Positions 2,328 through 33,909 of a DNA stretch of 34,554 nt are shown here, piece by piece (the stretch's first letter is position 1; each line of letters begins with the position of its first letter). The stretch spans positions 1 to 34,554 of the IMG/VR virus record IMGVR_UViG_3300047319_000427; one strand, 5' to 3'. Source of the DNA: a virus. Below the pieces are notes generated by a model that was not told where the DNA came from, made no database searches, and saw nothing but the letters and a program-made list of their open reading frames with translations. The translations under genes and the position numbers were made by a program.

Positions 2328-2513
2328 ATGAATGAACAAAAAGCGCGAGAGATCCTTGGAGATGAGATAACAAAAGAAGGAGGATTGTATGATCTTGGAC
2401 ATTACATGTGCTGGCATCCTACTGACACAAGAATCACTTTAGATTGTGCATTTGAAGTTGAAGAACTTGAAGCCATCGTCTGGTGGATGAAAAATCATGG
2501 AAAAGCAAAATGA
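2328..2513 (+). CDS. Small phage protein of the ILGDEI/LYDLGHY type, 61 aa
   Basis: The sequence MNEQKAREILGDEI, LYDLGHYMCWHPTDT and LEAIVWWMKNHG matches a pattern I recognise from many phage and prophage genomes: a short protein with a glycine-rich turn, a W-x-P strand and a C-terminal helix with paired tryptophans. Its role is not established. It overlaps the RusA-like gene by ATGA at 2510-2513, so it is probably co-translated with a DNA-processing protein. Confidence 0.7.
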   Translation: MNEQKAREILGDEITKEGGLYDLGHYMCWHPTDTRITLDCAFEVEELEAIVWWMKNHGKAK

Positions 2514-2869
2514 CTAAAAATGAACTCTCCCGACGATTTCCAAACGCCAGCGAAGCCTTCCTCAGAGCCAATAAAGATCGAGTTGAGAGTGAGGGGGAGA
2601 GTCCCAAGCCTGAATGCAATCTTGGCAATGAATCATTGGGGAAGGACGAAGTTAAAGAAGTCAATTCAGGCCGCGTTAAAATCATCTATCACGTCTTCCG
2701 TAGCCGCCTCTGTGATCCAGACAATGTATTCCTCAAGTACCACACCGACGGACTCCGATACGAAGGACTTATTAGAGATGACAGGAACCAAGATATTGAG
2801 ATTGAAGTTGAACAATTTAAAAGCCGGGAAGAATTTGTAATTATAACTCTAATATACCCAAATGAGTAA
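2510..2869 (+). CDS. RusA-like Holliday-junction resolvase, catalytic C-terminal half in frame
   Basis: Residues 58-119 carry the RusA core: a strand (VKIIYHVFRSRL), then CDPDN (68-72), YHTDGLRYEG (77-86) and RDD (89-91). These acidic positions match the metal-binding aspartates of RusA (the D-x-D-N motif and the later DD). The family cuts four-way DNA junctions, which in phages helps resolve recombination or replication intermediates. The N-terminal part (MTKNELSRRFPNASEAFL) is not the usual RusA N-terminus; that segment (PSLN...) is found in an overlapping +1 frame from 2520. Length is 119 aa, normal for RusA. The start at 2510 overlaps the upstream stop by ATGA. Confidence 0.65.
   Translation: MTKNELSRRFPNASEAFLRANKDRVESEGESPKPECNLGNESLGKDEVKEVNSGRVKIIYHVFRSRLCDPDNVFLKYHTDGLRYEGLIRDDRNQDIEIEVEQFKSREEFVIITLIYPNE
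2520..2840 (+). CDS. Overlapping frame encoding the RusA N-terminal motif, 106 aa
   Basis: This frame lies wholly inside the RusA-like gene, shifted by one base. Residues 18-53 (PIKIELRVRGRVPSLNAILA, then MNHWGRTKLKKSIQAA) look like the RusA N-terminus: a strand, PS-x-N, an aromatic/basic segment and a basic helix. Its remaining C-terminus is Ser/Thr/Lys-rich and has no domain features. Either it is expressed as part of a frameshift product with the catalytic half, or it is a separate overlapping gene, or it is a relic of a broken resolvase. No canonical slippery heptamer is present; GTTAAAG (2651-2657) and GTTAAAA (2675-2681) are the nearest sequences. Confidence 0.45.
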   Translation: MNSPDDFQTPAKPSSEPIKIELRVRGRVPSLNAILAMNHWGRTKLKKSIQAALKSSITSSVAASVIQTMYSSSTTPTDSDTKDLLEMTGTKILRLKLNNLKAGKNL

Positions 2870-3335
2870 AACACATGGAGGAACAATTGGAAGAAAAACC
2901 GGAGGCAAAGAAGCTAGGGAATATATTCGATGGATAGCGATGAAATCTAGATGTCATAATCCAAATAATAATAGATATAATTTATACGGCGGCCGCGGGA
3001 TTAAGGTATGCGAAAGATGGAAAAACAGTTATGAAAATTTCTTAAAAGATATGGGTTTATGTCCGGAAAATCATTTCCTTGATAGAATTGATTCTAATAA
3101 AGAATATAGCCCTTCAAATTGTCGATGGGTTACCCAAAAAGAACAGCAAAACAATAGAAGGAATAATTTCAGGATTGAATTTAAAGGCATAATAAAAACT
3201 TCGGCTCAATGGGCTGAAGAATTAAATTTTAATACAACCACCATTCATGCTCGCCTTTATAAATTGGGATGGACAATAGAAGAAACTTTAATGACGCCGC
3301 TTCGCAAATGCAGGGCAAGAATTGGTACGTCTTAA
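2862..3335 (+). CDS. Free-standing homing-type endonuclease (HNH/AP2-like), 157 aa
   Basis: The order of motifs, RCHNP (30-34), YGGRGIKV (42-49), ERW, LDRID (73-77) and NCRWVTQKEQQNNRR (86-100), is typical of a large phage and bacterial family annotated as HNH or AP2-like endonucleases. A C-terminal helix-turn-helix (about 111-146, AQWAEELNFNTTTIHARL) would bind DNA. Such genes are usually selfish homing genes placed between functional genes. It overlaps the end of the RusA-like gene by eight bases. Lower GC than its neighbours (AATAATAATAG-type stretches) fits separate acquisition. The domain looks complete. Confidence 0.7.
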   Translation: MSKTHGGTIGRKTGGKEAREYIRWIAMKSRCHNPNNNRYNLYGGRGIKVCERWKNSYENFLKDMGLCPENHFLDRIDSNKEYSPSNCRWVTQKEQQNNRRNNFRIEFKGIIKTSAQWAEELNFNTTTIHARLYKLGWTIEETLMTPLRKCRARIGTS

Positions 3336-33390: not shown

Positions 33391-33909
33391 CTAATTTATC
33401 CTATTCCAAATCTTCCCATTAAGGATTAGAGACACATGGTAGTAAGGAAGGCGAAATAGTTTAGAAATCAAAACAATTCTCATGCCCATTGCTCTAAATT
33501 TCTTCATCCTCCGAACCTTATCATTCGTAAGCTTAGCTCCGTAAGCATCCTCTCCGTATAGAGGCTTAAACAATCCAGTCCTAAGCGCGTGATCCCTATT
33601 CTCAGCCTGAGTTACATACTCCAGATTACTCAATGCGGCATTAAGCTTATTCCCGTCCTTATGGTTAACTTCCATACCTAATGGACGCTCTCCAAGAAAG
33701 GCTTGGGTAACCAACTTATGCACATAGATCCTTTTCTGCTTTTTCCCTTTAGATAGCTCAGTAATCAGATAACCGTTCTTCTTCTGGTTCATACTCAACA
33801 TCCTAATCCTACTTATCCCTTGAAAGTGAATCGACCTAACCCTCCCCAAATCGCTAACCTCATAAAGACCTTCGTATCCAACAACAGGTTTCCATTGTTC
33901 AATTATCAT
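33391..33909 (-). CDS. NUMOD4-HNH homing endonuclease, 172 aa
   Basis: NUMOD4 at the start (EQWKPVVGYEGLYEVSDLGR, with VRS following), then the HNH core: VHKLVTQAF (63-71), EVNHKDGNKLNAALSNLEYV (80-99) and QAENRD. A C-terminal helix-turn-helix (about 126-165, LTNDKVRRMKKFRAMGMRIV) binds the target. These nucleases spread by cutting intron- or gene-less alleles. The gene is near the control region and starts within six bases of a strong promoter, so it may be translated from a leaderless message. The domain set is complete. Confidence 0.8.
   Translation of the reverse strand: MIIEQWKPVVGYEGLYEVSDLGRVRSIHFQGISRIRMLSMNQKKNGYLITELSKGKKQKRIYVHKLVTQAFLGERPLGMEVNHKDGNKLNAALSNLEYVTQAENRDHALRTGLFKPLYGEDAYGAKLTNDKVRRMKKFRAMGMRIVLISKLFRLPYYHVSLILNGKIWNRIN

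Follow-up and report, generated by a model that had tools for sequence, protein, structure and literature searches.

The locus at positions 2510-2869 of the window, by which we mean the whole 34,554-nucleotide stretch of a viral record that was analysed, raised the question of how a RusA-like resolvase could be spread over two overlapping reading frames. The original prediction placed the catalytic motifs in one frame and a RusA-type N-terminus in the other, and offered three explanations: a programmed -1 frameshift, true overprinting with two products, or a broken gene. Both placements were seen as claimed. Frame A (2510-2869, plus strand) encodes 119 amino acids from an ATG at 2510 to a stop at 2867-2869, and contains CDPDN, TDGL, and RDD; it appears to be the C-terminal, catalytic half of RusA behind a leader of the FPNASEAF type. 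Its start overlaps the stop of an upstream ORF (2328-2513) in an ATGA at 2510-2513 of the same strand. Frame B (2520-2840, plus strand), in the +1 frame of A, encodes 106 amino acids from an ATG at 2520, 10 nt downstream of the frame A start, to a stop at 2838-2840. It contains RVPSLN and HWGRTKLKK, and would represent the N-terminal half of RusA followed by a tail not conserved in sequence. The third frame at this locus is full of stops. The opposite strand of the window carries terminase, portal, and head genes. Two HNH endonuclease genes are also present in the window (2862-3335 and 33391-33909), and the first of these has a few bases in common with the end of frame A. Positions with a sign are counted below from the first base of the P codon of the frame B motif PSLN (window 2604), taken as 0.

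Each frame was compared with known families. Frame A of the window matched the RusA family phrog_34 weakly and over residues 55-96 only (E 9e-4), and neither frame of the window, nor anything else in its record, matched Pfam RusA. Among 30 representatives of the arrangement, frame A matched PHROG 34 (RusA) at E 0.1 or better in 29 and PHROG 1682 (RusA) in 22, and a single one matched Pfam RusA, at E 0.019, short of the curated Pfam cut-off. Frame A used as a profile against PDB sequences gave chance matches only. No frame B protein matched Pfam RusA, and frame B proteins or their profile pointed to no consistent family in Pfam, PHROGs, or PDB sequences. The best PHROG score changed little when B was joined to A, so that test did not establish B. 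A profile from an alignment of 15 ordinary RusA proteins was more informative. The C-terminal part of frame A corresponded to columns 54-122 (score 58.9), and the N-terminal half of frame B to columns 6-51 (score 23.0, against 16.4 for the best of 300 column shuffles), whereas the N-terminal part of A and the C-terminal half of B scored 6.0 and 6.3. A 54-sequence profile gave columns 56-123 for A (score 56.8, E 2e-10) and columns 6-49 for B (score 24.1, E 2.3e-4, with at most 18.8 in 200 shuffles). The match of B to the RusA profile was modest, with a probability of 11-44% and E values of 0.003 to 2e-4. These alignments suggest, modestly for B, that B and A are complementary, non-overlapping parts of RusA.

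In the window, frame B residues 18-62 (2571-2705, plus strand) aligned with columns 6-51, which cover strand 1, the PSxN loop, and helix 1, and frame A residues 51-118 (2660-2863, plus strand) aligned with columns 54-122, which cover strand 2, the DxDN loop, and the rest of the fold. Since these matched parts overlap by 46 nt, the same DNA (2660-2705, plus strand) codes twice, for the last part of helix 1 in B and for the first part of strand 2 in A. The 30 representatives of frame A share invariant D69, D80, L82, D91, and Q102, with N72 and K76 in at least 90%; which of the conserved positions are the catalytic residues is our assumption. Frame A of the window carries CDPDN, K76, D80, and D91, that is, the acidic DxDN motif with the lysine, the second aspartate, and the later DD. 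In one subgroup (L024, L038, L042, L058, and L061), frame A reads D-E-R-N instead of D-x-D-N, and its active site, lacking the second aspartate of the motif, may be different. At least two types of frame A leader were found, FPNASxSF-like and W[ST]xxxYxxY-like (window 2510-2600; L018, L020, L027, and L051), in a stretch where A is otherwise little constrained.

Structure predictions gave a similar division. In AlphaFold2 models of one locus (L027), frame A was predicted as strand-helix-strand-strand with block pLDDT of 87-97 from residue 51, and frame B as strands and a long helix with block pLDDT of 94-95 at residues 21-40; for the tail of B, after about residue 58, confidence was low. In the A model, residues 48-117 aligned to E. 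coli RusA over residues 52-118 only (Z 6.2, rmsd 2.2, 65 residues). The small B model found no structural match in the PDB.

We then considered relatives. Searches with the frame A protein alone returned five IMG/VR relatives and the methanogen virus vir555, besides a contig identical to the window at this locus. In all six relatives, at about 35% protein identity, frame B was open in the same place and carried the N-terminal RusA-like motif, although vir555 does not keep the PS of PSxN. Counting the window, six of these seven loci had the A motif 110 nt after the B motif, and one had it 107 nt after. The vir555 locus (L018) lies at positions 1351-1698 of a segment taken from BK063671.1 (11143-14325). 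GenBank annotates only frame B there, as a 'hypothetical protein' (vir555_00024, DBA35050.1), and leaves the frame A with the catalytic motifs unannotated. Searches of phage records by tblastn returned vir555 or nothing, and a plasmid search found no relatives. Two pattern scans of genome contigs also returned no relative; these patterns were narrow, and their result does not imply absence from cellular genomes.

A DNA pattern for both frames, built on the motif geometry, gave 48 matches, with both frames open through in 47. Patterns for a single frame gave the same picture. The pattern for A alone returned 45 matches, consisting of 38 known and 6 new dual-frame loci (44 of 45 in total) and one ordinary single-frame RusA (L071). 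The pattern for B alone returned 83 matches; among the 80 listed, 77 were dual-frame (28 known and 49 new), one was a chance match, and two were truncated by the end of the locus. The arrangement was counted in 105 viral loci. The set of 104 loci examined further leaves out L070, whose translation is close to that of L068, and the ordinary RusA L071. In all 104 the two halves lie in two frames with identical phase, and frame A is open through P. The motif spacing was 110 nt in 98 loci, 107 nt in four, and 116 nt in two. In ordinary RusA L071 both motifs are in one frame, 174 nt apart, in line with the earlier remark that the gap from PSLN (2604-2615, plus strand) to DPDN (2714-2725, plus strand; 110 nt after PSLN) is shorter than in RusA. 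The gap is short because the junction is dual-coded. Frame B stops at +207 or later in 101 of the 104 loci, and at +108, +108, and +123 in L094, L132, and L097. Judged from these early stops, the B half can end just after the helix, and its tail would be dispensable in those three lineages.

We further investigated selection on each frame. Among 28 gap-free representatives, variability was highest at the third codon base of B as far as about +40, and at the third codon base of A from about +80. Ten independent close pairs agreed with this: in -24 to +35, changes silent in B only numbered 51 against an expectation of 25, and those silent in A only 13 against 24; in +102 to +200, the changes silent in A only numbered 63 against an expectation of 29, and those silent in B only 22 against 32. 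Recoding tests were carried out on 48 sequences, which remained at 80% identity from 97 gap-free ones, and each was scored against profiles of relatives below 62% identity. At the junction (+66 to +100), z for B given A averaged 3.1 and exceeded 2 in 46 of 48 sequences, and z for A given B averaged 3.9 and exceeded 2 in all 48. Outside the junction, scores of 0.9-1.7 were obtained for whichever frame should not matter. When the test was slid along the locus, B was constrained up to about +110 and A from about +51. By these tests, selection falls on B in the upstream part and on A in the downstream part, with both readings under selection at +66 to +100. Since the third-frame control was also raised at the junction (2.4-2.6), there may be a nucleotide-level element there as well.

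Openness of the frames was assessed with the codon usage of the contig. Frame A was open at -24 to +62 in 48 of 48 loci where 14.5 were expected, and frame B at +102 to +200 in 46 of 48 where 12.9 were expected, versus 3 and 1 of 48 for the third frame over the corresponding stretches. The sequences share ancestry, so these openness counts, like those of the constraint tests, are not independent. An initial, more conservative test, which shuffled only the synonymous codons of the region itself, was weak per locus (mean p 0.69 for B beyond +110 in 30 representatives), as codons that could make stops are already avoided in this region. We rely on the test based on contig codon usage.

A possible start for each frame was present in all 48 non-redundant loci, being ATG in 42 for A and 45 for B, with the limits that some start codons were picked by us and that a few loci had no good candidate. 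By the chosen starts, A begins first in most lineages and B in some. Sequences resembling ribosome-binding sites precede each frame in vir555. Across the set they were weak, with at least 5 nt in 10 of 48 loci for A and 5 of 48 for B, versus 4 of 48 for the third frame.

A single broken gene or an assembly error would look the same as the window if it were the only locus known. The same phase in the 104 loci examined, and purifying selection in both parts, make this explanation vanishingly improbable, and with more than 100 loci, 48 of them non-redundant at 80% nucleotide identity, sharing the arrangement, the idea of a broken gene was refuted. Pseudogene formation and sequencing error were also rejected. 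A programmed -1 frameshift from B to A would make one fused RusA and leave the separate starts and extra open frames incidental. The frames do follow each other in the order of N-half and C-half, always in -1 phase, across an unusually conserved junction, and A-rich heptamers occur in a few loci. In the part of the PRFect report considered here, RusA/RuvC is listed among genes said to contain a frameshift, and the A/B arrangement is not described. The heptamer X XXY YYZ, however, was found in only 7 of the 104 loci, at four different positions or spellings. The sequence GTTAAAA, near which a shift was proposed originally, is not of this form, and the window locus has no such heptamer from +20 to +110 of frame B. 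In a comparison of structures without pseudoknots, RNA structure over +101 to +178 did not exceed that of codon-order shuffles (mean z -0.02, below -2 in 2 of 48). Frame A is open upstream and B downstream, both beyond expectation, and whichever single shift point is chosen, B is constrained after it and A before it. A fused chain would also have about 20 residues fewer between its motifs than ordinary RusA has, and by this spacing it would lose part of the helix or the strand, whereas two chains keep both elements. We regard the frameshift as quite unlikely; two half-proteins are favoured because slippery heptamers are so few, no excess of RNA structure was seen in that comparison, and the fusion is too short. 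Slippage on homopolymers was likewise rejected, with runs of 7 or more in 2 of the 104 loci only.

It could also be that A alone is the enzyme, a shortened RusA-like nuclease, with B a relict or a regulator that is RusA-like for another reason. The catalytic residues are in A, and its core is predicted on its own with high confidence. Yet the RusA-like half of B is under strong purifying selection, A is without strand 1 and helix 1 of the fold, and A was met without B only in ordinary RusA L071, which has both halves in a single frame. This too is unlikely. Overprinting with two products is the best supported of the three options offered originally, with one correction: the second product would be the complementary half of RusA and not an unrelated protein.

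The reading we prefer, with a probability of about 70%, is that this RusA-like resolvase is encoded by two overlapping half-genes that are translated separately, their products coming together in one fold. An ancestral RusA-like Holliday-junction nuclease would have been split into two overlapping genes. B would supply the N-terminal strand, the PSxN loop, and helix 1, and A, one frame away, would supply strand 2, the DxDN active-site loop, and the remaining fold. Start codons and long open frames were observed for both, from which we infer that A and B are each started separately. Homology and constraint together indicate that helix 1 ends, and strand 2 starts, on the same 46 or so nucleotides. 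Once made, the two chains would join in a single RusA-like fold that cuts branched DNA, in which case the enzyme would need both chains.

Much of this has precedents, as RusA, overlapping genes, and partner proteins from overlapping frames are already known. The dual-frame loci resemble RusA (PF05866, PHROG 34; E. coli PDB 1q8r, 2h8c, and 2h8e) in the N-terminal PSxN strand-helix, the DxDN loop, the lysine, D[AG]L, and DD, and in the predicted fold of the C-terminal part of A. RusA enzymes act on Holliday junctions as metal-dependent dimers. Ordinary RusA differs in being a single frame of about 120 amino acids with 174 nt between the motifs (L071), whereas the dual-frame loci have two frames, separate N- and C-halves, and 107-116 nt, and the N-terminal strand, PSxN loop, and helix 1 (B) are not in the active-site chain (A). 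In lambda-like phages the Rz1 gene is embedded in Rz. The literature on these spanins describes two proteins forming one complex. The likeness lies in two partner proteins from overlapping frames acting together, as proposed for A and B; Rz and Rz1 are membrane lysis proteins and not halves of one ancestral domain, and no sequence relation is claimed. Insertion-sequence orfA/orfB pairs use -1 frameshifting at slippery motifs to give a fused product. They too divide one enzyme into an N- and a C-part whose frames overlap with an offset of one, whereas A/B is without a conserved slippery motif and its overlap is constrained in both frames. In searches of the open-licence PMC literature we found no description of RusA split into complementary halves by overlapping frames.

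As judged from the loci compared, the arrangement looks long-lived and under selection, and not a mistake. We consider it somewhat better than an even chance that this is a widespread viral resolvase that is an obligate two-chain enzyme, with its halves derived from one domain by overlapping frames and the fold junction written twice. The often basic tail of B may then be an extra DNA-binding arm, and neither chain would be free to mutate at the junction of this long-lived split. Gene callers can miss the catalytic half, as the non-catalytic frame alone is carried for vir555 in GenBank. If true, the reading would offer a clear example from nature in which overlapping frames divide one domain between two chains and the joint of the fold is encoded twice, and the assembly of a split fold could be tested in a defined system. 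The split would persist in many viral lineages, including a methanogen virus, and overprinting would be able to split an enzyme, beyond adding a new protein.
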